A stretch of DNA of 64,000 nucleotides, taken from the NCBI GenBank assembly GCA_028280505.1, contig JANQLO010000011.1, positions 1 to 64,000 of the forward strand, in the 5' to 3' direction. The notes beneath the pieces were generated by a model. The model worked only from the letters and a program-made list of their open reading frames with translations. It had not been told where the DNA came from and searched no databases. The stretch's first letter is position 1; the number at the start of each line of letters is the position of its first letter. Both the position numbers and the translations under genes were made by a program. Positions 7,163 to 40,016 of the stretch are shown here, piece after piece. This stretch comes from Chromatiales bacterium (GTDB lineage: Bacteria > Pseudomonadota > Gammaproteobacteria > Chromatiales > Chromatiaceae).

Positions 7163-7483
7163 CTAGTCCGCGCGCGCCCAGATTTGGCCGGATTCGATTT
7201 TCACAGGATAGGTGCCGATGGGGTCGCTCGCCGGTTCATCCAATGCGGTGCCTGTTTCCAGGTCGAAATAACTGCCGTGCAGCGAGCACTTGATGCGTTT
7301 GTCCTTGATGCAGCCCAGTGCGAGCGAGTAGTCCTCGTGGGTGCACATTTCATCGACCAGATAGAGCCTGCCGCCGGCATTGACCAACAGCAGGCGTTTG
7401 TCACCTACCGTGACCGCCTTCATCGCGTCATTGTCGATTTCGCCCTCTTTGGCGATCGCGACCCAAGCGGAGTCAGCACTCAT
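7163..7483 (-). CDS. Rieske [2Fe-2S] ferredoxin-like protein
   Basis: The 106-aa single-domain Rieske protein has both cluster-ligand boxes: C-T-H in VDEMCTHEDY and C-S-L-H in IKCSLHGSYFD, 18 residues apart as in biphenyl-dioxygenase-type ferredoxins and NirD-like proteins. It would act as a soluble electron carrier. It has no signal peptide and no oxygenase partner nearby. Its ATG overlaps the stop of the TrpD-like gene (ATGA), so the two are translationally coupled. The physiological redox partner is unknown. Confidence 0.9.
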   Translation of the reverse strand: MSADSAWVAIAKEGEIDNDAMKAVTVGDKRLLLVNAGGRLYLVDEMCTHEDYSLALGCIKDKRIKCSLHGSYFDLETGTALDEPASDPIGTYPVKIESGQIWARAD

Positions 7484-8601
7484 CTGACACGATCGGCGGC
7501 GCGGCCGCTGTTGAGCGCATCGCGCAGGATCTCGCCCGCGCTACCGATGTTGTCCGCACGGCCGAGGTGGGTCAGGACCAATGCACCGGCATAGACGAGG
7601 GAATCATAGGTTGCGCCTTTTTCACCGGATAACGCGGCCATGCCGTATTCGGCGGCCTTGCGCGCGCCGGCATCGATATCCGTTAGCGTCACGGCGCCTT
7701 CGCCTTTTTCGGTTTGTGGAACATCCTCCGGGATGGGTACGGCGCGGGTCGGTTGTTCAATACCGAGCATGCCGGGATCGATGTCGTAACCGGTTTCTTC
7801 GCCACCGTCGGTATAGGCAAAATACTTACCTGCCTGGCGTAGCGAAGGAACAATGCCACCTTCGACGCCGCGGACGATCAATGCGGAATCAAAACCCGCG
7901 TGTCGGGCAAGATCGGCGTATACGGGCGGATAGGGTTTGTGGACATAGCCGGTGACAAAATGGGTTTTTTTGCGTCCTATGATCGGTCGGGCCAATACTT
8001 CCACCGTAGTGATGACCGAGCGTTTGACCATCCGTTGGCGCAGGCCAATCAGGTCGTGCAGACCGGGTACGTAGCGCGCCTGATCGACGTAGGCCCAGCC
8101 CAGTCCCGGATCGGCCAAACGGGCGGCAGCCTGAGCGCTGTCGAGGTCGACGTCGATACCGGCGGCCGCCAGCACATGACGATGGGTGACGCCGTATTTC
8201 GGGCCAACCGCATTGAGCCCGTGGCTGAATGCGGGGATGCCGCATTCCGCGAGCAGCGGGGCGAGAAAGGGTGACGCCGGAACGGTCCGATTGTAGCCAT
8301 CGTAAGGATCGGCGATATCGACGACCTCGTCGACGTCGGCGGTAGCCAGGTCGCGGAGATCCAGGATCGCCTGCAGCACACCGCGGTTTTCCTCCGCGGT
8401 TTCGCGTTTCATCCGCAATGCGATCAGAAAGATGCCGGCACGTACCGGATCTATCTCACCCTTGAGAATGCCGCGCATGCCGATTCGCGCCTCTTCCTGG
8501 CTGATGTCCTTCGATAGTTCGGGACCGGTGGCGATGCGCTGGATGATCGAGAACATCGTTTGTTCTGTCTCGGTTTGGCCGGCGGACTCCAGGGCATTCA
8601 T
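7480..8601 (-). CDS. TrpD2/YbiB-like glycosyl transferase family 3 protein
   Basis: The 373-aa product belongs to the anthranilate phosphoribosyltransferase fold. It has the helical N-terminal domain (EEARIGMRGILKGEIDPVRAGIFLIALRMKRET) and the central motif HGLNAVGPKYGVTHRHVLAAAG in place of the canonical KHGN/GSAD-type sites of true TrpD. No trp genes are near, and YbiB-type TrpD2 proteins are known to be DNA-binding rather than tryptophan enzymes, so a non-Trp role is likely. AGGAG six nt upstream selects the ATG at 8601 over one two codons earlier (8607). It is coupled by ATGA to a Rieske ferredoxin, an unusual partnership. Confidence 0.8.
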   Translation of the reverse strand: MNALESAGQTETEQTMFSIIQRIATGPELSKDISQEEARIGMRGILKGEIDPVRAGIFLIALRMKRETAEENRGVLQAILDLRDLATADVDEVVDIADPYDGYNRTVPASPFLAPLLAECGIPAFSHGLNAVGPKYGVTHRHVLAAAGIDVDLDSAQAAARLADPGLGWAYVDQARYVPGLHDLIGLRQRMVKRSVITTVEVLARPIIGRKKTHFVTGYVHKPYPPVYADLARHAGFDSALIVRGVEGGIVPSLRQAGKYFAYTDGGEETGYDIDPGMLGIEQPTRAVPIPEDVPQTEKGEGAVTLTDIDAGARKAAEYGMAALSGEKGATYDSLVYAGALVLTHLGRADNIGSAGEILRDALNSGRAADRVR

Positions 8602-8660
8602 TAGCATCTCCTAAATTATTCCCTCGCGGAGTATAAGTAACCGATAAGGCCCGTCAATAA

Positions 8661-9548
8661 TCAATCCCTGAATCGCCTTCGTAGATCATGGTATTCCTCG
8701 ATCCGGCGATCGCGCAGAAAAGGCCAGATGCGACGGACCGATTCGCTTCGGGTGCGGTCGATCTCGATCAACAGTGTCTCTGCCGCTTCGCCGCCTTGAA
8801 CCAGGATTTCGCCTTGTGCGCCGCAGGCGAAGGAACCACCCCAGAAGCGGATACCCGGTGAATTCGGATCGGGTGAGGGTTCGATACCTACCCGATTGCA
8901 GGCCAACAGGGGAATGCCATTGGCCACGGCATGCCCACGTTGAACCGTAACCCAGGCGTCGCGTTGGCGGCTGCGTTCCGCGTCGTCGTCCCGCATATCC
9001 CAGCCTATCGCGGTTGGGTAGAGCAATAACTCGGCTCCGGCCAACGCCATCAGACGGGCAGCCTCGGGGAACCATTGATCCCAGCATACCAGCACGCCGA
9101 GTCGCCCGAGCGATGTATCGATCGGCTGAAAACCGAGATCACCCGGCGTGAAATAAAACTTCTCGTAATAGCCCGGGTCGTCGGGGATATGCATCTTACG
9201 GTAGCGCCCGGCCAGTTGTCCGTCGCGGTCGAGTACGACAGCGGTGTTGTGGTACAGACCTGCCGTACGCTTTTCAAATAGGGAGGCGACGATTACCAGC
9301 GACAGACGTTTCGCCAATGCGCCCAATGTTTCCGTGCTCGGCCCCGGAACGGGCTCGGCGAGGTCGAAGTGCACGACATCTTCGTTTTGACAGAAATAAG
9401 GGCCGTTATGGAGCTCCTGAAGCAACGCCAAGCGCGTGCCTTTTGCGGCCGCCTGTTCCAGTTCATGCGTGATCAGTGCCAGATTCGCCGCCGCGTCGCC
9501 TTGATCGGCATGTTGGATTATCGCCACCTTCAATGTCGTATCGCTCAT
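8661..9548 (-). CDS. aguB: N-carbamoylputrescine amidohydrolase
   Basis: The 295-aa nitrilase-superfamily enzyme hydrolyses N-carbamoylputrescine to putrescine, CO2 and ammonia. The Glu-Lys-Cys triad is visible: Glu in LLQELHNGPYF, Lys in RYRKMHIPDDPGYYEK and Cys in VLVCWDQWFPEAARL. The ATG at 9548 (MSDTTLKVAI) overlaps the aguA stop as ATGA and gives the family length; an upstream in-frame start at 9611 lies inside aguA. It is the last step of the agmatine route to putrescine, with AguA encoded directly upstream. Confidence 0.95.
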   Translation of the reverse strand: MSDTTLKVAIIQHADQGDAAANLALITHELEQAAAKGTRLALLQELHNGPYFCQNEDVVHFDLAEPVPGPSTETLGALAKRLSLVIVASLFEKRTAGLYHNTAVVLDRDGQLAGRYRKMHIPDDPGYYEKFYFTPGDLGFQPIDTSLGRLGVLVCWDQWFPEAARLMALAGAELLLYPTAIGWDMRDDDAERSRQRDAWVTVQRGHAVANGIPLLACNRVGIEPSPDPNSPGIRFWGGSFACGAQGEILVQGGEAAETLLIEIDRTRSESVRRIWPFLRDRRIEEYHDLRRRFRD

Positions 9549-10609
9549 GTCGCCATCGGTTCCAGGGTGTTGTTCAGCGTGACCGCTGCCGGGAATTGCA
9601 TCGTCAGGCAATGCAGGCTGCCGTTTTGGCGAATGATCTCACGACAGTCGATGGCGATCACCTCCCGTCCGGGAAACGCCAGTTTCAGTGTCGCGATTGC
9701 CTTCTCGTCTTGCGCCACGCCGTAAACCGGCGCCAATACGGCTTCATTGATGATCAGAAAGTTGGCATAGGTTGCCGGCAGTCGATGTCCATCGTCGTTT
9801 TCATGCACCCCGGGAAAGGGCAACGCCAGTAAGCGGTAGGGTTGTTGCCCAGCCGTTTTGAGCGCCCGCAACTGTGCTTCCATCGCCGTTAAACTTGTGT
9901 GGTCGGCATCGCCGGCGGGGGCTGTTGCGTAAAGAATGGTTTCAGGATCGGCGAAACGTGCCAGCGTGTCGATATGGCCGTCGGTATCGTCGCCCGAGAT
10001 GTTTCCATGATCCAGCCAGAGAAAACGTTCGATGCCGAGCGCGGATGCGAGTTGCCGCTCCAGGGTTGCTTGGGCCAAGCCGGGATTCCGGCTTTCGGTG
10101 ATTACGGCCCCCCGCGTCGCCAGCATGGTGCCTTTCCCGTCGACCTCGATCGCGCCGCCTTCGAGCACGATGTCAAGTGGATTGAACTCGACGTCACCGA
10201 ATGTACCCTGACCAACAAGCTTCCCAGTCAATGCATCGTCAAGGTCGGCGCTGAATTTGTTCCCCCAACCGTTGAAACGGAAATCGTTCAAGCGGGCGCT
10301 GCCGTCGCGGTCATTCAGCGTCGTGATGGGGCCGAAATCGCGTGCCCAGGTATCATCGCTTTCGGCGATGGCGAACACCAGGCCGCCGGGATCGGCACCG
10401 TGTTGCGACAAGACGGCATTGATGTGCTCGGCGTGAGCGTGGGATCGGCAGACGGATAGCAGCGTTTCGTGCCGAGCGATTGCGGCACCGATCCGGGCGA
10501 ATACAGGCTCGATTAGGCCGAGTCTGTCGTGCCAGTCGGTGCCGGCATGAGGCCAAGTCAGCAGGGCGCCAGCCTGCGGCTCCCACTCAGCGGGCAGGCG
10601 GGTCGGCAT
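9545..10609 (-). CDS. aguA: Agmatine deiminase
   Basis: The 354-aa product is of the peptidyl-arginine-deiminase-like guanidino-modifying fold and converts agmatine to N-carbamoylputrescine and ammonia. Visible elements are the N-terminal MPTRLPAEWEPQAGALLTWP, the DTWARDFGPI substrate loop, the LDHGNISGDDTDGHIDTLARF segment with the catalytic His/Asp, and the nucleophilic Cys near the C-terminus in NGSLHCLTMQFPA. It lies 17 bp after a BamE-like gene and is coupled to aguB by ATGA. No arginine decarboxylase gene is in the window. Confidence 0.95.
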   Translation of the reverse strand: MPTRLPAEWEPQAGALLTWPHAGTDWHDRLGLIEPVFARIGAAIARHETLLSVCRSHAHAEHINAVLSQHGADPGGLVFAIAESDDTWARDFGPITTLNDRDGSARLNDFRFNGWGNKFSADLDDALTGKLVGQGTFGDVEFNPLDIVLEGGAIEVDGKGTMLATRGAVITESRNPGLAQATLERQLASALGIERFLWLDHGNISGDDTDGHIDTLARFADPETILYATAPAGDADHTSLTAMEAQLRALKTAGQQPYRLLALPFPGVHENDDGHRLPATYANFLIINEAVLAPVYGVAQDEKAIATLKLAFPGREVIAIDCREIIRQNGSLHCLTMQFPAAVTLNNTLEPMAT

Positions 10610-29020: not shown

Positions 29021-29959
29021 ATGATTGCGAAGTTGGCCTCGGCGGTGATGGCGCGCCGTTCTCACCATACGTTGATTTTCCACCGGGTTTTGTCCGAGGT
29101 GGATCCGATGTCGCCTGACGAACCGACGGCTTCGTGGTTTCACGATCTGTTAGTGCGATTGAAATCCAGGTTCGAGATCATCCCGCTCGGCGACGCAATC
29201 CAACGAGCAGCCAACGGGGACTTGAAAGGGCGTACGCTGAGCATCACCTTCGACGACGGTTACGCCGATAACTGCACGGTCGCGCTACCTGTGCTGGAGC
29301 AGCTCGAACTGCCCGCGACTTTCTTCGTCGCCAGCGCCTTTATCGACGGTGGTCGGATGTGGAACGATTCCATCATTGAAACCTATCGTCGACTGGCGCC
29401 GGGACCGCATCGGGTCGCTTTGGAAAAAGTAGAGACCATCGAGGTCGACGACTGGTCGTCCAGACGCGCCGCTGCCTCGGCCGCTATCGCAGCCTGGAAG
29501 CACTTGCATCCTGATGAACGCCAAGCCAGGGTCGATGAATTGGCCTTGCAGGTCGATGGATTGCCGAACGATCTTATGATGACCGGTGTCCAACTGCGGC
29601 GCATGGCCGAATCGCCTTATGCGGAGATTGGTGGGCATACGCGTAATCATCCGATATTGGCAAGTTTGCCGGTCGAGCAGGCAGGTGTGGAAATCGAGGG
29701 TGGTAAGGTCGATCTGGAAGCCTTCATCGGTCGTCCCCTGCGCTTGTTTGCCTATCCCAACGGCAAACTCGGTCGCGACTATCGTCCGGAACATGCCGAG
29801 TTAGTGCGTGAGGCCGGATTCGACGCGGCAGTCGCGACAGATTGGGGGACTTTGGATAACTCGACCGATCTCTATTCGATTCCGCGTTTTACGCCTTGGC
29901 ATCGAAACTACAATCGCTTCTTTATCGATCTTGCGCGTTGTCACTACGGCATGATCTAG
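29021..29959 (+). CDS. NodB-type polysaccharide deacetylase
   Basis: The 312-aa protein has the NodB homology motif 1 LSITFDDGYADN (metal-binding Asp-Asp) and GGHTRNHPILASLP as the His-x-x-x-His metal site. It lacks an obvious signal peptide, which fits the cytoplasmic deacetylases found in exosortase/exopolysaccharide loci. It would remove N-acetyl groups from a sugar intermediate. It ends 11 bp from the convergent amidotransferase gene. The substrate is unknown. Confidence 0.88.
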   Translation: MIAKLASAVMARRSHHTLIFHRVLSEVDPMSPDEPTASWFHDLLVRLKSRFEIIPLGDAIQRAANGDLKGRTLSITFDDGYADNCTVALPVLEQLELPATFFVASAFIDGGRMWNDSIIETYRRLAPGPHRVALEKVETIEVDDWSSRRAAASAAIAAWKHLHPDERQARVDELALQVDGLPNDLMMTGVQLRRMAESPYAEIGGHTRNHPILASLPVEQAGVEIEGGKVDLEAFIGRPLRLFAYPNGKLGRDYRPEHAELVREAGFDAAVATDWGTLDNSTDLYSIPRFTPWHRNYNRFFIDLARCHYGMI

Positions 29960-29970
29960 CCGAACCTCCG

Positions 29971-31803
29971 TCAGGGTTCGTAACCCTGCGCAGTCAACCA
30001 TAATTCCAACATCATCAATACCCAGATGAATTCACCGTAGTAACCGGAATGCTGACCAAGATGCAGCTTTGACAACTGGTCAATAAAAGCGGGCTTAACA
30101 TAGCGGCGACGTTTCATTCGCGACAGGTTATCGGCCGCCAACTCCTGCAGTCCCGGATGTTCGCTCATCCAGACGCCGAAAGGGAGACCGAATCCATGTT
30201 TGGGCTTGTTGATAATCTGTTCCGGCAAGAGATCCTTGACGGCGCGCTTGTAGAAGTCCCGCAGTTTGTTGCGGCGCATTTTTCGACCCGATGAAACCCG
30301 TGTCGAAAACTCGACCAAGCGATCGTCGAGCATGGGATACTCGACGTCGATACCGGCCAACTGGCACATGCGGTTGACCTTTCTCAGGTCATTGTCGGTC
30401 AAGGTGTGGTGCCAATCCAGATACAGCATGCGATTCAAGCGTGATGCCGATTGGGGTAGTTCATAGATCGCGCGTTCCAGTTGAGCCGGTTGTTCCGGGT
30501 CGGTGGTCTGCCACAAATCGTCGTTGAAAATCTCGCGGTGTCGGAATCGGTTCAGGAAATTGTATGCATGCAGGCGATCCGGTAGCGGAACGTTCGCCTG
30601 GCGGATGTAACTTCGCGCTTTGTCGATTCTAGGTACGGCATTGACTATCGGAGCGTTCACCACAGGTTCCAACAGATAACGACGCGACCACTCGGGCAAC
30701 CAGCCGTAACGTTCGAACACGGTTTGTTTGGCGTACCGCTCGTTACCTGCGAACAGCTCGTCACCACCATCGCCGGCAAGCAATCGCTCACGGCCGTCCG
30801 CCAAGGCGAAACGGGCGCAGAAGTAGGCGGGCAGGGCGGATGAATTACCGAAAGGTTCATCGTAAGCGGCCGCAATTTCCGGCAAGGCCGAGAGCACATC
30901 TTCCGGTGTTACATAGTAGGTGTTGAAATGGGTGCCGAAGCGTTCGCTCGCCATTCTGGCGTACTCGATTTCGTCGTAGCCTTCTGCGTTGAAACCGATC
31001 GAGTAAGTTTCCGGGTTAGCGCGGTGCTTGGCCAACAACCCGGCCACGGTCGAGCTGTCGAGCCCACCGCTGAGAAAGGCACCGACATCTGCGCCTTCGG
31101 CCAGGCGGGCAACCGAACTGCTGAGCAATCCCAGCATTTCTTCTCCCGCGTCTGCCAACGAGGTATCGGCATATTCGTCGAACGACGGTTGCCAATAACG
31201 CACCGGCTTCCACGCGTCACCTTCGAAAATCAGTGCATGGGCCGCCATCAGCTTGTTGATACCGCTGAAGATGGTGTTTGGCCCTGGCACCATATGAAAG
31301 TACAGGTAGTTGAATATCCCTTGGTCCGATAATTCGGGTCGATGGCCTAGCAGATGCGTCACCGCGGTTGCAGTCGGACCGAAAACCAAGCGGCGTTTGT
31401 CATCGCGGGCCCAGTACACGGGCATTTGCCCGAAACGATCACAGGCGATCAGCCCCCGTTTGTTGGCTTTGTCCCAGACGAAACAGGCAAAGCGCCCGCC
31501 GATGGCATCTAACAGCCCCGTGCCAAGTTGCCGGTAAGCATGCAACAAGGCGGCTGCCGGCCCTTTTTTCAGTTGGATATCGGCGTATTCGACATGCAAC
31601 CAGTCGAGGTTGCCGCTCAATCCGCAATGCACGCCGCCATCCGACAGCAAAGTGCCTCCAACTACGGCGGCATTGATGGCTGGCTCATGCAGCAAGCCCG
31701 GCTTCTCACCGGCTCCGAGGTGTTCGAGGGCCTTGATCAACAGGGATTCATCGGAATCGGATGCCGGTATACCGACGCGGCCTGCAATGCCAGGAATGAC
31801 CAA
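29971..31803 (-). CDS. Asparagine-synthetase-like amidotransferase lacking the N-terminal Cys
   Basis: The 610-aa protein has an N-terminal Ntn-glutaminase-like domain (about 1-190, DRFGQMPVYW) and a C-terminal PP-loop synthetase domain with SGGLDSS at 245-251 and GDGGDELFAGNERY. It resembles the AsnB-like amidotransferases of exosortase-A/EPS loci. The usual MCGI N-terminus, whose Cys attacks glutamine, is replaced: the TTG start at 31803 (GGGAG upstream) gives MVIPGIAGRV, with no Cys. The upstream open frame to 32193 is antisense to the acyl carrier gene and has no such Cys either. It may use free ammonia or have lost amidotransfer. Only 151 bp separates it from the divergent ACP gene. Confidence 0.85.
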   Translation of the reverse strand: MVIPGIAGRVGIPASDSDESLLIKALEHLGAGEKPGLLHEPAINAAVVGGTLLSDGGVHCGLSGNLDWLHVEYADIQLKKGPAAALLHAYRQLGTGLLDAIGGRFACFVWDKANKRGLIACDRFGQMPVYWARDDKRRLVFGPTATAVTHLLGHRPELSDQGIFNYLYFHMVPGPNTIFSGINKLMAAHALIFEGDAWKPVRYWQPSFDEYADTSLADAGEEMLGLLSSSVARLAEGADVGAFLSGGLDSSTVAGLLAKHRANPETYSIGFNAEGYDEIEYARMASERFGTHFNTYYVTPEDVLSALPEIAAAYDEPFGNSSALPAYFCARFALADGRERLLAGDGGDELFAGNERYAKQTVFERYGWLPEWSRRYLLEPVVNAPIVNAVPRIDKARSYIRQANVPLPDRLHAYNFLNRFRHREIFNDDLWQTTDPEQPAQLERAIYELPQSASRLNRMLYLDWHHTLTDNDLRKVNRMCQLAGIDVEYPMLDDRLVEFSTRVSSGRKMRRNKLRDFYKRAVKDLLPEQIINKPKHGFGLPFGVWMSEHPGLQELAADNLSRMKRRRYVKPAFIDQLSKLHLGQHSGYYGEFIWVLMMLELWLTAQGYEP

Positions 31804-31908
31804 CTGGAAACTCCCAAGAGATGGAAAGTGCCGTATTGTAGCTGGAGTCGGTCCGGCGGCGTGATTTGATGTGTGATTATCTGGGTGATCTTCCGTTGTT
31901 GTCCGGTT

Positions 31909-31917
31909 TGATATACT
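31909..31917 (+). promoter_or_regulatory. Extended -10 promoter element before the ACP gene
   Basis: TGATATACT contains the extended -10 dinucleotide TG one base before TATACT (5 of 6 to TATAAT). It lies 37 bp before the chosen ACP start in the 151-bp divergent region. No good -35 is seen, as is common with extended -10 promoters. It would serve the ACP-hydrolase-hydrolase operon. Confidence 0.4.
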
Positions 31918-31954
31918 GCGCCCGCATTTCAATATGGTTTGGAAACAGTTGCGG

Positions 31955-32200
31955 ATGACAACCTTTGAACAAGTAAGACAAATAGTCGGTGATGTATTGC
32001 AGCTCGGCGACAGAACACCGGGTCTAACACCCGAAACCCCCCTTCTGGGTAACATACCGGAATTCGATTCCATGGCCGTAGTCAGTGTCATTACCGCATT
32101 GGAAGACCAGCTTGGCATTTTTGTTGAAGACGACGACATCACCGGGGACACTTTCGAGACCTTGGGTAGCTTGACGGATTTCGTACAAACCAAGATGTAG
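31955..32200 (+). CDS. Acyl carrier protein (exosortase-locus type)
   Basis: The 81-aa carrier protein has the phosphopantetheine attachment serine at 39 in IPEFDSMAVVSVI, one residue pattern away from the DSL of fatty-acid ACP. It has the acidic helix II of carrier proteins. The ATG at 31955 gives the usual length; an ATG seven codons earlier is possible. It leads a plus-strand unit with two hydrolases (gaps 11 and 2 bp). A phosphopantetheinyl transferase that could activate it is encoded 7.2 kb away (39.4 kb). Confidence 0.9.
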   Translation: MTTFEQVRQIVGDVLQLGDRTPGLTPETPLLGNIPEFDSMAVVSVITALEDQLGIFVEDDDITGDTFETLGSLTDFVQTKM

Positions 32201-32211
32201 CGTCGGTTGAC

Positions 32212-33018
32212 GTGGAACGTGTCGTTCGCTTCATCAACGGGAAGGCCGGCAGGATTTTATGCTCCGGCTTCCTAACCCGACATTCCAAGAAAGGGGACAA
32301 GCTGTTTCTGATTGCGCCTCCTTTCGCCGAGGAAATGAACAAATCCCGCTATGTGCTTTCACGGTTGATATCGGCCCTGGCCGGTGCAGGCCACAGTGCC
32401 TTGCTGTTGGATTTCTACGGCACCGGCGATAGCGAAGGCGACTTCGAGGATGCGACACTCGATATCTGGCACGCCGATTTGGATGCCGTGGCCGATCAGT
32501 TCAAAGACGGATTTGAACTCGGCCTCATTGGGTTGCGTAGCGGCGCTTTGATCGCCGCACATGTCGCGCAACAGGGCGGCTTCGACTCTTTGATGCTATT
32601 GCAGCCCACGGCAGAGGGTCGGCAGCAGCTTGCGCAAATGTTGCGTCTGCGTGTTGCGGCAGCGATGTTCGGCGACGGACAGACCGAAACGGTTTCCGAT
32701 TTACGTGCTTTGTTGGCGAGCGGCCAATCGGTCGAGATCGCCGGTTACAATTTGTCGAGCCGATTGGCGGCAGACCTGGATACCTTGTCTTTAGGTGCAA
32801 TGAGGCCAAAAACCTTATCGCCGGTGAATTGGATAGAGGTGGTGACCCAGGCCGAACGCGGATTGACACCGGTGAGCCGCAAGGTCATTGCCGCGTGGAA
32901 CGACGCAAAAATCGATGTCAGAGATGCGGTTGTCGAATGTGATCAGTTTTGGGCAACCCAAGAGATCGCTGTTTGTCCGGAATTAGCGCAAACGGCGGTG
33001 GCGATGGTGTCGAGCTGA
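32212..33018 (+). CDS. Alpha/beta hydrolase of the exosortase-A-associated hydrolase 2 type
   Basis: The 268-aa product has a serine-hydrolase fold: strand DKLFLIAPPFAEEMNKSR, the LLLDFYGTGDSEGDF motif shared by exosortase-associated hydrolases, and a nucleophile elbow GLRSGALIA. GTG start after an 11-bp gap from the ACP gene. It is probably a thioesterase-like or acyl-transfer enzyme acting on the carrier-bound product; that role is inferred from neighbours. I recognise the family from the FYGTGDSEGDF block and the gene order. Confidence 0.78.
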   Translation: MERVVRFINGKAGRILCSGFLTRHSKKGDKLFLIAPPFAEEMNKSRYVLSRLISALAGAGHSALLLDFYGTGDSEGDFEDATLDIWHADLDAVADQFKDGFELGLIGLRSGALIAAHVAQQGGFDSLMLLQPTAEGRQQLAQMLRLRVAAAMFGDGQTETVSDLRALLASGQSVEIAGYNLSSRLAADLDTLSLGAMRPKTLSPVNWIEVVTQAERGLTPVSRKVIAAWNDAKIDVRDAVVECDQFWATQEIAVCPELAQTAVAMVSS

Positions 33019-33020
33019 GT

Positions 33021-33902
33021 ATGTCTACGATGACCGAACAGCCTGTCATTTTCAATTGCGCCAATGCCGATCTCGTCGGCATTCTGCATAGGCCCGATGA
33101 GATCGAAAGCGATGTCGGACTGTTGATCGTTGTAGGCGGCCCGCAGTATCGCGTCGGAAGTCACCGGCAGTTTGTTCTCCTGGCCCGCCAACTCGCATCC
33201 GAAGGCATACCCGTTTTTCGCTTTGACTATCGTGGTATGGGTGACAGCGACGGTGAACGCCGGTCTTTCGAGGACATTGACGATGACATTGCCGTAGCAA
33301 TCGAGACCTTTCTGCACCAATGTCCAGCGTTGAACGGCATCGCACTTTGGGGGCTTTGTGACGCGGCGACAGCCAATGCCTTTTATGTCCACAATACGAA
33401 ACATTCCATCGTTGTCGGACAGGTCGCGCTGAATCCCTGGGTGTTTACCGCCGAAGGAAATGCCGAGACCTATCTTAAGCATTATTACGGGCAGCGTTTC
33501 TTGAGTTGGGCGTTCTGGCGCAAGGTGTTGACGTTAAAGTTTGATCTCCTGGGGTCGGCCAAGAGCTTTCTCGGCAAGGTCCGAAGTGCCTCGGGTAAGA
33601 GAAACAAGTCGCACTCGACATCTCATCGATCATTACCGCAACGATTGTGTGACGCGCAGCTTTCGTTCTCGGGCCCGACTTTGATCATACTCAGCGGACA
33701 AGACCTTACCGCAAAGGAATATGTGCATCGGGTCGGTGAAACGACGGCCTGGCGCGAATGGCAGCAATCCGATTCTGTCGAAGTGCGGACTCTAGAGGCC
33801 GCGGATCACACGTTTTCGCGCGCGGTCTGGCGTGACCGGGTGGCGGCCTGGACACGTGACTGGTTGTTGGCGCTGCCGGACTCGCGAGTGGAAAAACACT
33901 AG
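33021..33902 (+). CDS. Alpha/beta hydrolase of the exosortase-A-associated hydrolase 1 type
   Basis: The 293-aa product has VGGPQYRVGSHRQFVLLARQL, the RFDYRGMGDSDGERRSFE motif and an elbow LWGLCDAATAN in which the nucleophile position is Cys rather than Ser. The catalytic His is likely in LEAADHTFSR. These blocks fit the hydrolase 1 group linked to exosortase A. The ATG at 33021 is 2 bp after the preceding stop, so the ACP and both hydrolases form one operon. It ends 5 bp from the convergent decarboxylase. Confidence 0.8.
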   Translation: MSTMTEQPVIFNCANADLVGILHRPDEIESDVGLLIVVGGPQYRVGSHRQFVLLARQLASEGIPVFRFDYRGMGDSDGERRSFEDIDDDIAVAIETFLHQCPALNGIALWGLCDAATANAFYVHNTKHSIVVGQVALNPWVFTAEGNAETYLKHYYGQRFLSWAFWRKVLTLKFDLLGSAKSFLGKVRSASGKRNKSHSTSHRSLPQRLCDAQLSFSGPTLIILSGQDLTAKEYVHRVGETTAWREWQQSDSVEVRTLEAADHTFSRAVWRDRVAAWTRDWLLALPDSRVEKH

Positions 33903-33907
33903 AGGCG

Positions 33908-35140
33908 TTATACCAATACCTGTACCGGGGGCGGGTGGCCCAGAAACAGGTGGGGACTTGCGGTATAGCCATAGGCGCCGGATTGCAATACGACCACCAG
34001 GTCGCCCACGTCTGCGGCACCCAAATCCATTTTGTCTCCAAGAATGTCCAGGGGCGTACAAAGCGGGCCGACCACGCTCGCTGTTTCGCGCGGTGCCGCG
34101 CTGACCTTGTTGGCGATAAGAACGGGGTAATTCTTACGGATGACCTGACCGAAATTGCCGGATGCTGCGAGGTGGTGATGCAAGCCGCCATCGGTCACCA
34201 AGTAGGTCGTACCGCGCGAGACTTTCTTGTCCAGGATTCGGCACACGTAGACGCCGGCCTCGGCGACCAGATAACGCCCGAGTTCGATCACGATCTCGAT
34301 GTTGCCGAGACGTGATTCACATTCGGTGAGACGCTGTTGCAGATTGTCCGACACCGAAGTCAGGTCGAGGCGGTTTTCACCCGGAAAATAGGGCACGCCG
34401 AATCCGCCACCGATGTTCAGGGTCTCCATTTTTTCCGGTGCGTCTTCGGCCAGGCGGTAAGCCAGTTCGAAGGTTGCGGTTTGTGCCTCGATCAGACTGT
34501 CCGGACGGAGATTCTGCGAACCGCTGAAGATGTGCAAACCTCGGAAATGTCCATCGGATTCGCCGATGCGCTTGAGTACCTGCGGTACACGCTCGGCATC
34601 GATACCGAAGGGTTTCGGGCCTCCGCTCATCTTCATGCCCGAGGACTTAAGCTCGAAATCGGGATTGACGCGTACCGCCAGATTGGGAACGATGCCCAAG
34701 GCGTCACCGATGAGTAGGGCCCGTTCGAGCTCGTTTTCGGATTCGAGATTCAGCGTGATACCGGCTGAAATAGCAGCAGCCAGCTCATTATCGTGCTTGC
34801 CCGGACCGGCGAAGCTGATATCCGCGGGTCCGGTGCCGCTATCCAACGCAATCTGCATCTCGCCGGCAGAAGCGACATCGAGACCGTCGACCAGGCTTGC
34901 CATGTGGTCGACCACCGCCGGCATCGGATTGGCTTTCATGGCGTAATGCAGGGAAACGCCGTCAGGTAGCACTTCTCGCAGCTCACCGACACGGCGCGCC
35001 ATCGCCTCCCGGTCATAGGCAAAGAAGGGCGTACGTCCGACACGTGATGCCAGTTGAGTCAACTTCATGCCGCCGACGATCAATTCATCATCGATAACCG
35101 GAAACTGCATCAGTGGGGCGTGTATTGGTTTTTCAGCCAT
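33908..35140 (-). CDS. PLP-dependent decarboxylase, exosortase-A-associated type
   Basis: The 410-aa enzyme has the alanine-racemase/ornithine-decarboxylase fold (fold type III). The PLP lysine is Lys69 in LHYAMKANPMP, the phosphate-binding loop is in LNIGGGFGVPYFPGEN, and the C-terminal domain has the active-site Cys in GPLCTPLDILGD. Such enzymes decarboxylate diaminopimelate, ornithine or an amino acid tethered to a carrier. The ATG at 35140 overlaps the stop of the ligase gene by 8 bp, showing coupling; the longer open frame to 35428 lies inside the ligase gene. The pairing with an AMP-ligase, ACP and two hydrolases is the exosortase-A accessory set. Confidence 0.88.
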   Translation of the reverse strand: MAEKPIHAPLMQFPVIDDELIVGGMKLTQLASRVGRTPFFAYDREAMARRVGELREVLPDGVSLHYAMKANPMPAVVDHMASLVDGLDVASAGEMQIALDSGTGPADISFAGPGKHDNELAAAISAGITLNLESENELERALLIGDALGIVPNLAVRVNPDFELKSSGMKMSGGPKPFGIDAERVPQVLKRIGESDGHFRGLHIFSGSQNLRPDSLIEAQTATFELAYRLAEDAPEKMETLNIGGGFGVPYFPGENRLDLTSVSDNLQQRLTECESRLGNIEIVIELGRYLVAEAGVYVCRILDKKVSRGTTYLVTDGGLHHHLAASGNFGQVIRKNYPVLIANKVSAAPRETASVVGPLCTPLDILGDKMDLGAADVGDLVVVLQSGAYGYTASPHLFLGHPPPVQVLV

Positions 35141-36728
35141 GATTGTCGTCCGTGGCCTGAAAGATGTCGGAGAACCGGGTGGCCAGTGTTTTGCGATCGA
35201 TTTTGCCATTGGGGTTACGAGGCAGATCGTCGGCGAAATGAATATGGCCCGGCAACATATACATGGGCAAATGTACCCGGCAGTGAGCAAGTACTTCATC
35301 GACGTCAAGACCGTTACGCGACGCTTGCACGACGAGGACAATGGCTGCGCCCAGTTGCGGATGCGGTGCGCCGAGTGCGACCGCTTGTTCGATACCATCG
35401 ATCTGAAACACGATCTCTTCGATTTCACCGGGGCTGACGCGATAGCCGGAAGTTTTGATCATCTCGTCGTTACGGCCGATGAAGTACAAAAACCCCTCGG
35501 TATCTCGTTTGACCCGATCGCCGGACCAAACGGCGATCTCGGGGTTGGGTATACCATCGACTTGCCCGGGTGCCGGTTTGAAGCGAATGTCGGTTTTTTG
35601 CTTGTCCCCCCAATAACCCAGTGCGACGAGAGCTCCGCGGTGAATTAATTCTCCAGGCTCGTCGGCGTCGCATTCACTGCCGTCCGGACGGACGACCATG
35701 ATGTCGGCATTGGGAATGGCTTTTCCCATGGATTCCGGTTTGGTGTCGACATGATCGGGCGGAAGATAGGTCGATCGGAACGCCTCGGTGAGGCCGTACA
35801 TGAGATACACCTGAGTATTCGGCAATGCGGCGCGCAGGTTTCTCGTCGTGCCGACCGGCATGGCACCGCCGGAGTTCGTTATGTAGCGCAAGCAATCGAC
35901 AGCCTCTTCCGGCCACGGCAGATCGGCAAGCTGATTCCACAATGGCGGTACCGCGGCCAGGCCGGTGACGCCATAGCGGCCGATCGCCCTGATGACGTCA
36001 CGCGGCAAGAGATAGTCCATTAACACGACGGACGCACCGACCGAGAAAGCCGTGGTCAACTGACTCAGACCGTAATCGAAACTGAATGGCAGTACCGCCA
36101 ACAGGCGATCTTCCATGGTGTTTTCAAGATAGGTCGCGACGCTTTCGGCGCCAGCCAGCATGTTTCGGTGCGACAACACCACGCCTTTGGGTCGACCCGT
36201 ACTGCCCGAGGTGTAAAGGATCGCCGCCATATCGGCGTCGATCCGTCGTGTTGTGACACCCGGCGGCTGCGATAACAACGAATGCCAAGAGCCGATTTCG
36301 TAATGCGGGTTTCCGAAGCCGCCTTCGGGCGGGTCGGCAATTAAGATGACATGCTTTAGATCGGGGCAGTCACGCAGGGCCTCGGCCAGTAGTTGCGTGC
36401 GCTCGGGGCTGGTGATCAGCACCTGAGTCGAACAGTCTTGCAAAATATGGGCGACCTGCTCGGGCTTGAGGATCGGATTGACCGGTACGAAAACGCCGCC
36501 TGCCTCAGCGGCGCCGAACATCGTGATTACCGTCTCGAATTGCTTTGGCAAATAGACCGCAACACGTTCATTGTACTGTACGCCAAGGGTACGCAGGCCG
36601 GCCGCGGCGCGGCTGACCGCATCGCTCAGCGCCCGGTAGCTGAGGGTCTTGTCCTTCAGCAGCAATGCATCGGCATCCGGTGTACGCTGCGCGGCGTGAT
36701 GAATCAGTTGGTGGAGCAAATAGGCCAT
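35133..36728 (-). CDS. AMP-forming acyl-CoA/ACP ligase, exosortase-A-associated type
   Basis: The 531-aa adenylate-forming enzyme has the core motifs ILYTSGSTGRPKGVVLSH (A3), YLMYGLTEAFRSTYLP (A5), GRNDEMIKTSGYRVSPGEIE and the C-terminal NPNGKIDRKTLA with the catalytic lysine. It would activate a carboxylate and load it on the nearby carrier protein. The start MAYLLHQLIHHAA overlaps by two bases the ATG of a protease gene on the other strand. It is coupled to the decarboxylase downstream. Confidence 0.9.
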   Translation of the reverse strand: MAYLLHQLIHHAAQRTPDADALLLKDKTLSYRALSDAVSRAAAGLRTLGVQYNERVAVYLPKQFETVITMFGAAEAGGVFVPVNPILKPEQVAHILQDCSTQVLITSPERTQLLAEALRDCPDLKHVILIADPPEGGFGNPHYEIGSWHSLLSQPPGVTTRRIDADMAAILYTSGSTGRPKGVVLSHRNMLAGAESVATYLENTMEDRLLAVLPFSFDYGLSQLTTAFSVGASVVLMDYLLPRDVIRAIGRYGVTGLAAVPPLWNQLADLPWPEEAVDCLRYITNSGGAMPVGTTRNLRAALPNTQVYLMYGLTEAFRSTYLPPDHVDTKPESMGKAIPNADIMVVRPDGSECDADEPGELIHRGALVALGYWGDKQKTDIRFKPAPGQVDGIPNPEIAVWSGDRVKRDTEGFLYFIGRNDEMIKTSGYRVSPGEIEEIVFQIDGIEQAVALGAPHPQLGAAIVLVVQASRNGLDVDEVLAHCRVHLPMYMLPGHIHFADDLPRNPNGKIDRKTLATRFSDIFQATDDNHG

Positions 36729-37551
36729 GGGAAAACTGCAACTGTCTGGAAAGCGCGATTATACCTGTAATGTGTTCTTCGGCCTCGGCGCCGGTGGATT
36801 GTTGACCGCGATTCTGATGGCGTTCGGCGTGCTGTTACCGGGCCCCGCTGTTGCCGCCAGTCTGCCGGATACAATCGACAAGGTGCGCCCCTCGATTGTC
36901 GCCATAGGCACTTACCTCCCTAGCGGCAGCCCCAGGCAACGGTTTAGGGGGACGGGTTTCGTCGTCGATAATGGTCACTTGGTCGTCACGAACTACCATG
37001 TATTGCCGACCGATCTCGATACGGAGAAGAACGAACAGTTGGGTGTGTTTTCCGGGCGTGGCCGTACGGGGAAATTTCACAAAGCGAAAATCATGGCCGA
37101 GGATCCCGTGCGTGACCTTGCCGTGCTATACATTTCGCAGCCCCTGTCGGCACTCAAGCTAGCCGGTGACAAACAGGTGCGCGAAGGTACGGAGATCGCC
37201 TTTACCGGGTTTCCGCTCGGCATGGCGCTCGGGCTTTATCCGGTGACCCATCGGGGTATCGTCTCCGCGATCAGCCCTATGGCGCCGCCACAGCTTGGTG
37301 CACGGGTATTGACCGCCAAGATGATTCGGGCGATGCGCGACCCTTATGACGTGCTTCAATTGGACGCCACCGCCTACCCGGGAAACAGCGGCAGCCCGGT
37401 ATACGATCAGCATAATGGCGAGGTGGTTGGCATCATCAACAGCGTATTCGTCAAGGGTAACAAAGAGGCGGCAATCCAGAATCCATCGGGTATCACTTAT
37501 GCGATACCTGTGCGCTTCGTGCATGAATTGCTCAAGCAGGCGCGTCAATAG
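36727..37551 (+). CDS. Secreted trypsin-like serine protease
   Basis: The 274-aa product has an N-terminal signal-type hydrophobic region (about 17-43, ending PGPAVAAS) after a 15-residue basic n-region. The chymotrypsin-fold triad is His91 in VVTNYHVL, Asp130 in EDPVRDLAVL and Ser221 in YPGNSGSPV. No PDZ domain follows, so it is not a full DegP/HtrA. The ATG at 36727 overlaps the divergent ligase ATG within CATG; a later GTG (36772) would shorten the n-region and may be the true start. The 3' end overlaps uppP by 7 bp on the other strand. A role in processing surface proteins is a guess from context. Confidence 0.85.
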   Translation: MGKLQLSGKRDYTCNVFFGLGAGGLLTAILMAFGVLLPGPAVAASLPDTIDKVRPSIVAIGTYLPSGSPRQRFRGTGFVVDNGHLVVTNYHVLPTDLDTEKNEQLGVFSGRGRTGKFHKAKIMAEDPVRDLAVLYISQPLSALKLAGDKQVREGTEIAFTGFPLGMALGLYPVTHRGIVSAISPMAPPQLGARVLTAKMIRAMRDPYDVLQLDATAYPGNSGSPVYDQHNGEVVGIINSVFVKGNKEAAIQNPSGITYAIPVRFVHELLKQARQ

Positions 37552-38345
37552 ACCAGCAAGAGTATCGCGATCCCGAGAAACAAGCGGTAAATCACGAACG
37601 GCCACATACCCATGCGTTCGATGAAACGCAAGAACAAATGGATGGTTATATAGGCCGCGATACCCGACAGCACGACGCCGAGTGCAAGTGAAGACCAGTC
37701 CACCGGTGCGTTTTGTTCGATCAGATCACGCAGAACCAGGGTCGTGGAGGCAAGAATGGTCGGAATCGACAACAGAAAAGAAAAACGCGATGCGGCGGCG
37801 CGGGTAAGCCCCAACCATAGGCCCGCGGTCATGGTAATGCCCGAGCGAGAGGTTCCCGGGATCAGTGCCAGGATCTGGCTCATGCCGATCACGACGGCAT
37901 CTCGCAGCGTGAGATGCTCTATCTCGCGCTCGCGTTTTGCCCGTAAGTCGATCACACCGAGCAATAGGCCGAAAACGATCGTGGTCAATGCGATGACCCA
38001 GGGGGCCCGCAGCTCGCCCTCGACCAAGGATTTCAGCAACAGACCGGCGATGACCACCGGGATGGTGCCGATGATGATGGCCCAACCGAGCCGGCTCTCG
38101 GGTGATCGCGGTCTGCCGGGCGGCAGGGCGCGAAACCAACCGACGGCGATATTCAAGACATCGCGATAGAAATAGCCGAGCACAGCCAGCAGCGATCCCA
38201 GATGGACCGCCACATCGAACGCCAAACCCTGATCATCGAATCCGAAAAGATGGGGCGCCAGAATCAAATGGCCGGAACTGGAGACCGGCAGGAACTCGGA
38301 CAGACCCTGAACGATCGCCAGGATCAGGATTTGCAGTTCAGTCAT
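37545..38345 (-). CDS. uppP: Undecaprenyl-diphosphatase
   Basis: The 266-aa multi-spanning BacA-type enzyme recycles undecaprenyl diphosphate, the lipid carrier for peptidoglycan and polysaccharides. Signatures are QGLSEFLPVSSSGHLIL (about 14-30) and LALIPGTSRSGITMTAGL. Eight membrane segments are expected. Its start overlaps the end of galE by 8 bp, making a galE-uppP unit beside the polysaccharide-related genes. Confidence 0.96.
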   Translation of the reverse strand: MTELQILILAIVQGLSEFLPVSSSGHLILAPHLFGFDDQGLAFDVAVHLGSLLAVLGYFYRDVLNIAVGWFRALPPGRPRSPESRLGWAIIIGTIPVVIAGLLLKSLVEGELRAPWVIALTTIVFGLLLGVIDLRAKREREIEHLTLRDAVVIGMSQILALIPGTSRSGITMTAGLWLGLTRAAASRFSFLLSIPTILASTTLVLRDLIEQNAPVDWSSLALGVVLSGIAAYITIHLFLRFIERMGMWPFVIYRLFLGIAILLLVY

Positions 38346-39330
38346 TACGTTCGGCGAGCTTTCGTTCCCAATTCAATGAGCTGCGGGCGATTTCTTCCAG
38401 GTTGTCGTAGCGGGGTTCCCAGCCGAGCACCTTGCGCACCTTTTCCGCACCGGCGATCAGTGCGGGCGGGTCACCCGCGCGGCGCCCTTCTTCGATGATG
38501 TTTAGCGGTGCGCCATTGACTTTTTGCACAGTGTCAAGCAGCTCGCGAACACTGTAACCATGGCCGTAACCGCAGTTCAGGGTCTGCGAATCTCCGCCTG
38601 CACGCAAGTAATCGAGCGCTTTCAAATGGGCATCGGCCAAATCTTCGACATGGATATAGTCGCGCACGCCGGTGCCGTCCGGTGTCGGATAGTCGGTACC
38701 GAATACACAGACGGCCTCACGTTTGCCGACGGCCTGTTCCGCAGCGACCTTCATCAACAGCGTAGCACCGGGCGTCGATTGTCCGATGCGGCCCTCCGGG
38801 TCGGAACCGGCAACGTTGAAGTAACGTAAAATCACTGAGCGTAAATCAGATGCCGCACCCAGGTCGCGCAACATGTGTTCGGTCATCAGTTTCGACATGC
38901 CGTAGGGATTGATCGGTTGTGTCGGTGTGTCTTCCCAGCACTGCTCCGATTCGGGAATGCCGTAGACGGCCGCGGTCGATGAAAAGACGAAGTGTTTGAC
39001 GCCGGCCTCAGCGCAACATTCCAGTAGATTGCGGCTGGCGCAGGTATTGTTGCGGTAATACTTCAAGGGATCGGCGACCGACTCGGGTACGATGGTATGA
39101 GCGGCGAAATGGATGACCGTATCGACGTCGTAATCACGCAGAAGCTTCGATACCAAGGTTTTGTCTGCGGTATCGCCCTCGACGAAATCGCCGTAGAGTA
39201 CGGCGTCGCGAAAGCCTTTGGAAAGGTTGTCCAGCGTAACCACGCGTTCCCCGCGTTCGCCCAGCTGACGAACCGTGTGACTGCCGATATAGCCGGCGCC
39301 GCCAGTAACCAGAATTGCATTCGAGGACAT
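38338..39330 (-). CDS. galE: UDP-glucose 4-epimerase
   Basis: The 330-aa extended short-chain dehydrogenase has the NAD-binding VTGGAGYIGSHTVRQLGERG at the N-terminus and the catalytic block SSTAAVYG followed by YGMSK. It supplies UDP-galactose for surface polysaccharide. It is translationally coupled to uppP. No gal-operon partners are near. Confidence 0.95.
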   Translation of the reverse strand: MSSNAILVTGGAGYIGSHTVRQLGERGERVVTLDNLSKGFRDAVLYGDFVEGDTADKTLVSKLLRDYDVDTVIHFAAHTIVPESVADPLKYYRNNTCASRNLLECCAEAGVKHFVFSSTAAVYGIPESEQCWEDTPTQPINPYGMSKLMTEHMLRDLGAASDLRSVILRYFNVAGSDPEGRIGQSTPGATLLMKVAAEQAVGKREAVCVFGTDYPTPDGTGVRDYIHVEDLADAHLKALDYLRAGGDSQTLNCGYGHGYSVRELLDTVQKVNGAPLNIIEEGRRAGDPPALIAGAEKVRKVLGWEPRYDNLEEIARSSLNWERKLAERND

Positions 39331-39404
39331 CTGAAATCCTTGTGTTGTTATTCACCGAGTTAGGGTGTTTTCGAGCGGCATGATAACCGTTGCGTGTGAC
39401 GTCT

Positions 39405-40016
39405 TCATTCTCGATCGAAGTCGAGGAATCTCAAATCGGGTGGGGTATCCTCAGTATCTATCGCGACGCAGGCTCTTAAGCCTTCACCAGCCGAAAAACC
39501 GACACTGAATAACGCGTTGGGATCGACGGGCTCCGCGAATATGCCGCGCCCCAGCGTTTTTTGGCGTGCCTCCAGGCGTGTCCAGAGGTCAAAAAAGAGT
39601 GTCGCCCTGCCGTCGGCCGGGCAGGCCGCTAGCGATTCCAGCTCTGCGGTCGACATCACTCGTCGGGCGAGGCGAATCGGGTCGTCAATCCGGCGCCGGC
39701 ATTCGATATCGACACCTACGGCGCAACGGGCATGTACGGCCAGCAACGCCGTGCCGCGTGTATGCGAAAGATTGAATTGCAACGCTGTCTCAGGGGAAAT
39801 CAGCCTGGGCTTGCCGCCCGGCGCAGGCGAGAGACCGATGCTATCGGGCTCGACGTCCAAATACCGTGCGAGAATGGCGAGACGTGCCTTGTGGGCTTGC
39901 GCACGTTGTTTTTCCGTTGACGATTTCAGGTCGATTCGCCAGATATCAAGCGTCTCTCCAGATAATCTCGATGCCGAATCGCCTTGGTGCCAGTGTGCCT
40001 CGATTTCCCGGTGCAT
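39405..40016 (-). CDS. 4'-phosphopantetheinyl transferase (Sfp-type)
   Basis: The 203-aa enzyme has FNLSHTRGTALLAVHARCAVGVDIECRRR, with the metal-binding Asp/Glu of DIE, and the later block LFFDLWTRLEARQKTLGRGI. This corresponds to the WxxKExxxK motif, here with Leu in place of the first Lys but Glu and the second Lys kept. It attaches phosphopantetheine to carrier proteins. It stands alone on the minus strand before the galE-uppP unit (gap 74 bp), and the ACP at 32.0 kb is an obvious candidate substrate. Confidence 0.87.
   Translation of the reverse strand: MHREIEAHWHQGDSASRLSGETLDIWRIDLKSSTEKQRAQAHKARLAILARYLDVEPDSIGLSPAPGGKPRLISPETALQFNLSHTRGTALLAVHARCAVGVDIECRRRIDDPIRLARRVMSTAELESLAACPADGRATLFFDLWTRLEARQKTLGRGIFAEPVDPNALFSVGFSAGEGLRACVAIDTEDTPPDLRFLDFDRE

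Follow-up and report, generated by a model that had tools for sequence, protein, structure and literature searches.

What does an exosortase-A accessory island do in a stretch of DNA that holds no exosortase? The question is raised by positions 29021-40016 of the window, which is the whole 64,000-nucleotide stretch analyzed here (contig C66, 1-64000, of a Chromatiales genome of 85 contigs and 4.65 Mb). All eleven genes listed in an earlier note on this DNA are located there and are matched by NCBIfam or Pfam models, with phoU and recJ as the flanking genes. They encode a polysaccharide deacetylase-like protein, an AsnB-like protein, an acyl carrier protein (ACP), two α/β-hydrolase-like proteins (hydrolase 1 and hydrolase 2), a pyridoxal phosphate (PLP)-dependent decarboxylase, an AMP-forming ligase, a serine protease, UppP, GalE, and a phosphopantetheinyl transferase (PPTase). 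The ligase, the decarboxylase, and the two hydrolases constitute the core. All four score above the curated NCBIfam cut-offs of TIGR03098-TIGR03101, which, together with their co-inheritance with exosortase A (XrtA) in 299 genomes, bears out the accessory nature claimed in the note. The island belongs to the XrtA/PEP-CTERM exopolysaccharide system as its accessory module, in which, quite possibly, an amino acid is loaded and decarboxylated on the ACP and then transferred by the hydrolases.

Exosortase A beyond the window

No exosortase or PEP-CTERM match is found within the 64-kb window, and to this extent the description of an island without an exosortase holds. It fails for the genome as a whole, where the search proposed in the note returned both XrtA and PEP-CTERM matches. 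XrtA is encoded on the same contig (C66:75414-76964; TIGR03109, 346.9 bits against a cut-off of 208), at a distance of 35 kb from the island, with the window ending 11.4 kb before it. It is preceded by seven exopolysaccharide genes that each exceed their cut-off (TIGR03027, TIGR03007, TIGR03018, TIGR03016, TIGR03015, WecB, and TIGR03006). XrtA and these genes span 67.5-77.0 kb on C66, and six of the seven models carry XrtA/PEP-CTERM names. Three exosortase matches occur in the genome, two of them above the cut-off, namely this XrtA and an XrtD on contig C12 (TIGR04152, 539.9 bits against 400). PEP-CTERM matches number 12 at E values up to 1, of which eight lie above the cut-off and none on C66.

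On contig C34, the gene of an XrtA amidotransferase (TIGR03108, 1071.6 bits) adjoins that of an XrtA glycosyltransferase (TIGR03088, 495.1 bits against 409.05). Within the window, Pfam detected no glycosyltransferase among the open reading frames (ORFs) of the island and 20 others of the 54 window ORFs. The sole Pfam name with the word “glycosyltransferase” in the scanned ORFs belongs to PF00591/PF02885 at 7483-8607, which we take to be phosphoribosyltransferase families.

With XrtA on C66 and the PEP-CTERM and C34 genes elsewhere, the XrtA system of this genome is dispersed over at least three places, and the orphan appearance of the island is an artefact of the window edge. Adjacency to the XrtA exopolysaccharide genes, a trait not taken as defining for the module, is not seen here. 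A distance of 309 kb separates the decarboxylase from XrtA in the complete genome G007 and one of 27 kb in G011, and the split layout is also present in G155 and G347.

The XrtD locus (C12:20001-60000, L021 and L022) is separate and contains, as judged by eye, glycosyltransferase-like genes. Near it lies a 3648-residue open frame, cut by the end of the retrieved stretch, that resembles a filamentous-haemagglutinin-type exoprotein and follows a porin-like gene with no NCBIfam match.

Co-inheritance of the core with XrtA

The profiling of the core against XrtA that the note had suggested was carried out in 299 genomes of the phylum, requested at a completeness of at least 90%, and in 56 closer relatives. 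Only the best few first-look candidates were scored per genome (e.g., four for the AsnB-like branch), and misses are possible. At scores above the cut-off, the decarboxylase occurs in 26 and XrtA in 29 of the 299 genomes. Both are present in 24, the decarboxylase only in two, XrtA only in five, and neither in 268 (Fisher p 2.3e-28), an outcome opposite to the lack of co-inheritance on which the note would have given up its proposal. The 24 genomes with both represent eight families; the p-value overstates the independent evidence because 14 of them share a single family (f61). Hydrolase 1 exceeds its cut-off in 23 of the 299 genomes, all of which belong to these 24, and reaches 166.0 bits against 168.45 in the remaining one (G176). 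Four other genomes show weak hydrolase 1 matches of 75-113 bits. The AsnB-like branch is present in seven genomes, again all inside the set of 24.

In nine further genomes the decarboxylase stays under its cut-off, at 373-455 bits, and no XrtA passed the threshold applied; an exosortase whose type is different or unsettled occurs in three of them (G064, G068, and G169). A decarboxylase branch with scores below the cut-off is seen in L093-L097 and in G064, G068, G076, G082, G169, G179, G189, G195, and G273. A ligase homolog lies nearby in some of its loci, and the setting might hint at the chemistry.

Gene content and order of the island

The features of the island are as follows, with bit scores given against the cut-off where one applies.

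29021-29959, forward strand: polysaccharide deacetylase-like protein (PF01522, 72.8 against 23.1 bits), adjoining the AsnB-like gene and supported by synteny
29971-31803 (5′ limit approximate), reverse strand: putative AsnB-like amide synthetase whose glutaminase domain is degenerate (PF00733 Asn_synthase, 255.4 bits)
31934-32200, forward strand: stand-alone ACP (PF00550, 29.2 against 20.8 bits), with Ser46 in an E-[FL]-D-S motif
32212-33018, forward strand: hydrolase 2, α/β-hydrolase-like (TIGR03101, 211.4 against 202.75 bits), with Arg109 at the nucleophile site
33018-33902, forward strand: hydrolase 1, α/β hydrolase (TIGR03100, 327.0 against 168.45 bits), with Cys114 (GLCDA), Asp229, and His264
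33908-35128, reverse strand: PLP-dependent decarboxylase (TIGR03099, 615.4 against 478.45 bits)
35133-36728, reverse strand: AMP-forming ligase (TIGR03098, 774.8 against 592.35 bits), with Asp218, Arg318, and Lys509
36727-37551, forward strand: trypsin-like serine protease (PF13365, 96.4 against 27.6 bits), oriented divergently to the ligase and starting, as judged by eye, with a signal-peptide-like stretch
37545-38345, reverse strand: UppP undecaprenyl-diphosphatase (TIGR00753, 254.5 against 217.5 bits)
38338-39330, reverse strand: GalE UDP-glucose 4-epimerase (TIGR01179, 445.3 against 262.3 bits)
39405-40016, reverse strand: HetI/Sfp-like 4′-phosphopantetheinyl transferase (PF01648, 50.9 against 25 bits)

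The order recJ-PPTase-galE-uppP-protease-ligase-decarboxylase-hydrolase 1-hydrolase 2-ACP-AsnB-deacetylase-phoU is common to seven other genomes of the genus (G002-G008, loci L065-L071) as far as their contigs extend; L065, L067, L068, and L069 stop inside or at the edge of the island. As the order is conserved across the genus, the island is not a chance assembly. The PPTase between recJ and galE was undetected in L070, the locus of the complete genome G007, though it is seen in other loci of the genus. The pair of asnB and deacetylase genes, at most 600 bp apart, was counted 8 times in 40 loci, mostly in the genus of the window. The trypsin-like protease adjoins the ligase in this genus and, beyond it, in L087, L124, L131, L133, and L134, and lies 1-6 kb from the ligase in L084, L147, and L072.

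Proposed pathway

From the presence, linkage, and co-inheritance of the genes, their residue patterns, and their nearest structures, we infer the following chemical steps, substrate, and acceptor. The PPTase would convert the ACP into its holo form. An acidic amino acid, either Asp or Glu, would be adenylated by the ligase and loaded on the ACP through the side-chain carboxyl. Subsequently, the BtrK-like decarboxylase would strip the α-carboxyl from the ACP-bound amino acid, yielding β-alanyl- or 4-aminobutyryl-S-ACP. Hydrolase 1, by way of its cysteine and together with hydrolase 2, would take over the ACP-bound acyl group and transfer it onto the XrtA glycan, at an amine or a hydroxyl; the deacetylase may expose such an amine. 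The AsnB homolog, devoid of a working glutaminase, would make a further amide from an ATP-activated carboxylate and an amine other than glutamine-derived ammonia.

It is proposed, tentatively, that bacteria with exosortase A attach an ω-amino acid (β-alanine or 4-aminobutyrate), made on a dedicated ACP, to their exopolysaccharide or to the glycan on which PEP-CTERM proteins are received. That a Cys/Arg pseudo-heterodimeric acyltransferase delivers this group, and that the AsnB-like branch extends it in β- and γ-proteobacteria, is put forward with the same reserve. If true, this would be a nonribosomal peptide synthetase-like side pathway within polysaccharide biosynthesis, and it would point to a specific aminoacyl group to be sought in exosortase-A polysaccharides.

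Proposed loading and decarboxylation on the ACP

Among solved structures, the closest sequence relatives of the ligase are VinN (PDB-ID: 3wvn), modules of LgrA, and one more peptide synthetase. LgrA is the best match in the PDB overall and VinN the best match among stand-alone enzymes; a prolyl-carrier ligase and β-aminoacyl-ACP synthetases come next and rank above malonyl-CoA synthetase. Asp218 (F-D motif), Arg318 (directly following YGLTEAF), and Lys509 (NGKxDR) are conserved in 48/48 aligned rows. The rows of the ligase, the hydrolases, and the ACP were taken from fetched loci by score thresholds, and distant members are not represented in them. Three loci of the AsnB-branch scan repeat contigs of G004, G005, and G008; without such near-identical rows, the ligase count is 45/45. 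In adenylation domains the aspartate holds the amino group of the substrate and the lysine is catalytic, and both residues are expected of a VinN-type amino acid:ACP ligase.

The best PDB match of the decarboxylase by sequence is BtrK (249 bits), followed by a “probable diaminopimelate decarboxylase” (163 bits) and other diaminopimelate (DAP) decarboxylases with at most 134 bits. Among solved decarboxylases it is thus nearest to BtrK, which makes it a candidate BtrK-type aminoacyl-ACP decarboxylase. Its superfamily also includes ornithine, lysine, and DAP enzymes. The possibility that the gene is the cell’s own LysA is ruled out by a separate, lower-scoring homolog at C6:13168 (201.1 bits) that is DAP-decarboxylase-like.

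The attachment residue Ser46 of the ACP is found in 62/62 rows (58/58 without near-identical ones). The ACP is probably activated by the PPTase of the island, which is one of two PF01648 matches in the genome at E values up to 0.01; the other lies on C24, and the frame taken for it gave no NCBIfam match. The note’s guess that the ligase loads and the decarboxylase trims agrees with the nearest solved relatives, which are amino acid adenylation enzymes and BtrK, but some acyl-CoA ligase models outscore the amino acid adenylation model. In the Thioalkalivibrio loci L125, L126, L127, L130, L135, L137, and L148, a lower-scoring AMP-ligase homolog (∼200 bits) lies some 3-5 kb from hydrolase 1.

The hydrolase pair

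Cys114 occupies the nucleophile elbow of hydrolase 1 in 64/64 rows (61/61 without near-identical rows), and the remainder of its triad is present in most of them (Asp229 in 55/64, His264 in 56/64). Hydrolase 2 has Arg109 at the corresponding site in 57/57 rows (54/54). The reading in the note has to be corrected at this point, since hydrolase 2 lacks the nucleophile. Fusions of the two proteins occur five times (L132, L141, L142, L146, and L190) among 16 long hydrolase 1 ORFs in 38 loci. The AlphaFold2 (AF2) model of the L146 fusion consists of two α/β domains (mean predicted local distance difference test score [pLDDT] 89.6, predicted template modeling score [pTM] 0.89 over 600 residues) joined through residues 295-312, a linker that is poorly ordered. 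The Cys/Arg pattern and the five fusions suggest that hydrolases 1 and 2 form an acyltransferase pair, in which hydrolase 1 would carry the acyl group and hydrolase 2 would act as a noncatalytic partner. A cysteine rather than a serine nucleophile suits acyl transfer from thioesters, as in polyhydroxyalkanoate (PHA) synthases.

Tandem sets of hydrolase 1 and hydrolase 2 are found beside the AsnB-like gene in L140, L143, L150, and L171. The second hydrolase 1 of the tandem has kept the cysteine and lost the aspartate and the histidine, as if it had turned into a binding partner.

The AsnB-like branch

Against TIGR03108 the AsnB-like protein scores 274.3 bits (cut-off 816.9) and aligns only from profile position 103 onward; to the Pfam glutaminase domains it aligns from mid-domain only. 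An identity as the XrtA amidotransferase was rejected, as the score is below the cut-off, the cysteine motif is gone, and the true TIGR03108 protein is encoded on C34. The gene represents an unnamed branch for which no NCBIfam model reaches its cut-off.

Motifs and linkage of this branch were counted in the best 80 of 529 confirmed loci from a scan of a genome-contig collection. MC[GSA] within the first 200 residues occurs in 0/80, RGPD in 0/80, NGE[IV] in 1/80, and SGGxDS in 80/80. Among 22 intermediate-score homologs in the same loci, MC[GS] is seen in 16, RGPD in 20, NGE in 20, and SGGxDS in 22. The branch has thus lost the glutaminase motifs and kept the synthetase motif, which is the β-lactam-synthetase-like pattern and contradicts the earlier view of the gene as a glutamine amidotransferase. 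The AF2 model (pLDDT 92.1, pTM 0.92) retrieves TsnB9, AsnB, and β-lactam and carbapenam synthetases in Foldseek over most of its length (template modeling score by query 0.55-0.72, root mean square deviation 6-9 Å). Motifs and model point to an ATP-dependent amide synthetase that probably does not use glutamine.

In 46 of the 80 loci, one or more core genes lie within ∼10 kb, and the number rises to 56 when XrtA and intermediate-scoring paralogs are counted as well; none of these is found in the other 24, several of which are on short contigs. The titled loci come from γ- or β-proteobacteria except L179 (Candidatus Acetothermia). In L125, L127, L130, L142, and L148, the AsnB-like protein has an N-terminal GLCGW stretch with the look of a glutaminase-start remnant, in which the cysteine is not at position 2.

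Alternative explanations

Several findings weigh against the proposed pathway and are taken up here with the rival explanations. Most generally, all enzyme functions are predicted, and the identity of the substrate (Asp or Glu) is the weakest link of the account.

The two hydrolases could be a thioesterase pair that does no more than clear mis-loaded ACP, with the transfer left to an unlinked enzyme, which is judged unlikely. Because the Foldseek neighbors of the hydrolases are esterases and lipases, plain hydrolysis has to be reckoned with. Also to be weighed against the proposed transfer, nine hydrolase 1 rows lack the aspartate; eight of these have Gln in place of the histidine, which L172 keeps. 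In L140, L143, L150, and L171 the row concerned represents the second copy of two, in L147, L165, L172, L180, and L183 the sole copy in the fetched stretch, and hydrolase 1 of the window retains Cys114, Asp229, and His264. A clearing role fits poorly with the distribution of hydrolase 1, which occurs in all 24 genomes with decarboxylase and XrtA, once at a score slightly too low, and was found in neither genome that has the decarboxylase only. The cysteine nucleophile also fits acyl transfer from thioesters.

The ligase, in turn, might be a fatty-acyl-CoA/ACP ligase, so that the module makes an acylated product and the decarboxylase a free diamine; this has rather little probability. The NCBIfam name reads “acyl-CoA ligase,” and the fatty-acyl ligase models PRK06187 (321.7 bits) and PRK08316 (293.1 bits) outscore the general amino acid adenylation model TIGR01733 (261.2 bits), all three staying below their cut-offs. 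FadD5 (245.6 bits) ranks among the adenylation enzymes in the profile search, and the superfamily of the decarboxylase includes ornithine, lysine, and DAP enzymes. The residue alignment of the ligase to a solved structure covers LgrA, its best PDB match. VinN reportedly uses an arginine in the same region for its second carboxylate, and Arg318 might play the corresponding role in the ligase. Conversely, amino acid adenylation enzymes head the list of its solved relatives, and Asp218 is invariant in its 48 rows. In the PDB, the decarboxylase is matched more closely by BtrK than by enzymes acting on free amino acids, and the separate gene on C6 is the DAP-decarboxylase-like one.

A third explanation, considered improbable, is that the module makes an amine acceptor (linker) for the XrtA-dependent transfer of cleaved PEP-CTERM proteins and not a general exopolysaccharide substituent. 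Co-inheritance with XrtA speaks for such a linker, the primary amine would come from the amino acid once it is loaded and decarboxylated, and the TIGRFAM note on the decarboxylase reportedly proposes a carrier or linker precursor. However, five of the 29 XrtA genomes (G061, G069, G270, G301, and G338) lack both the decarboxylase and hydrolase 1, so the module is not a universal XrtA acceptor.

The same five genomes also count against the load-and-decarboxylate pathway, as do two of the 26 decarboxylase genomes that have neither XrtA nor hydrolase 1 (G198, with another exosortase, and G160, with none) and the presence of the AsnB-like branch in just seven of the 24 genomes with both. The association is looser in the 56 relatives, among which 12 have the decarboxylase, 14 XrtA, eight both, four the decarboxylase only, six XrtA only, and 38 neither. 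The decarboxylase-only relatives are G004 and G005 (incomplete genomes), G027, and G042, and those with XrtA only are G001, G006, G019, G032, G044, and G055; in G006, a contig end truncates a decarboxylase. The exosortase that PF09721 finds in G042 scores below the XrtA cut-off (187.4 bits). G027 is unsafe as an example of a core without an exosortase, given an exosortase fragment at a contig end and a match to the XrtA-associated O-ligase model TIGR03097 near the core.

Finally, the notion that the island is an orphan relic which survived the loss of its exosortase, consistent as it is with a window free of exosortase and PEP-CTERM matches, is hardly credible and is ruled out by XrtA and its exopolysaccharide genes on C66, with PEP-CTERM matches in the genome and a split layout that recurs (309 kb in G007).

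Comparison with known systems

With the XrtA accessory module defined by TIGR03098-TIGR03101, the island shares the core enzymes, an XrtA in the genome, and an ACP beside the hydrolases. It differs in the 35-kb gap to xrtA (309 kb in G007) and in the additional PPTase, galE, uppP, and AsnB-like genes. NCBIfam names the core enzymes solely by their association with exosortase A.

The butirosin pathway (BtrK/BtrI, PDB-IDs: 2J66 and 7RU7) resembles the island in its stand-alone ACP and in BtrK, the glutamyl-ACP decarboxylase to which the decarboxylase of the island is closest, and differs in the AMP-forming ligase that the island contains. The butirosin loading enzyme BtrJ has another fold. A stand-alone adenylation enzyme, an ACP, and a PLP decarboxylase are likewise combined in VinN/VinL/VinO and FlvN, which provide β-aminoacyl starters of macrolactams, although their setting is polyketide biosynthesis and that of the island is exopolysaccharide and exosortase. 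VinN loads 3-methylaspartate on VinL, where VinO then decarboxylates it, and loading is required first, as described in a review (PMC11284099).

TsnB9, AsnB, and the β-lactam and carbapenam synthetases share the fold and SGGxDS with the AsnB-like protein, which differs as a sequence branch of its own. β-Lactam synthetase lacks the N-terminal cysteine too. The canonical TIGR03108 protein has a homologous AsnB architecture; the intermediate homologs mostly keep the glutaminase motifs, whereas the branch of the island does not.

A literature search, with thin coverage of subscription journals, returned no paper that assigns a function to the core enzymes. Passages of PMC1569441, PMC9850573, PMC3584217, and PMC3684757 offer no explanation of the core. 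PMC3584217 lists Bcam1334, a TIGR03100 match from a polysaccharide cluster of Burkholderia, among its predictions as a hydrolase.

Outside the island, an agmatine-deiminase-like gene and a carbon-nitrogen-hydrolase gene lie adjacent to each other at 8664-10609 of the window and probably belong to a putrescine route.

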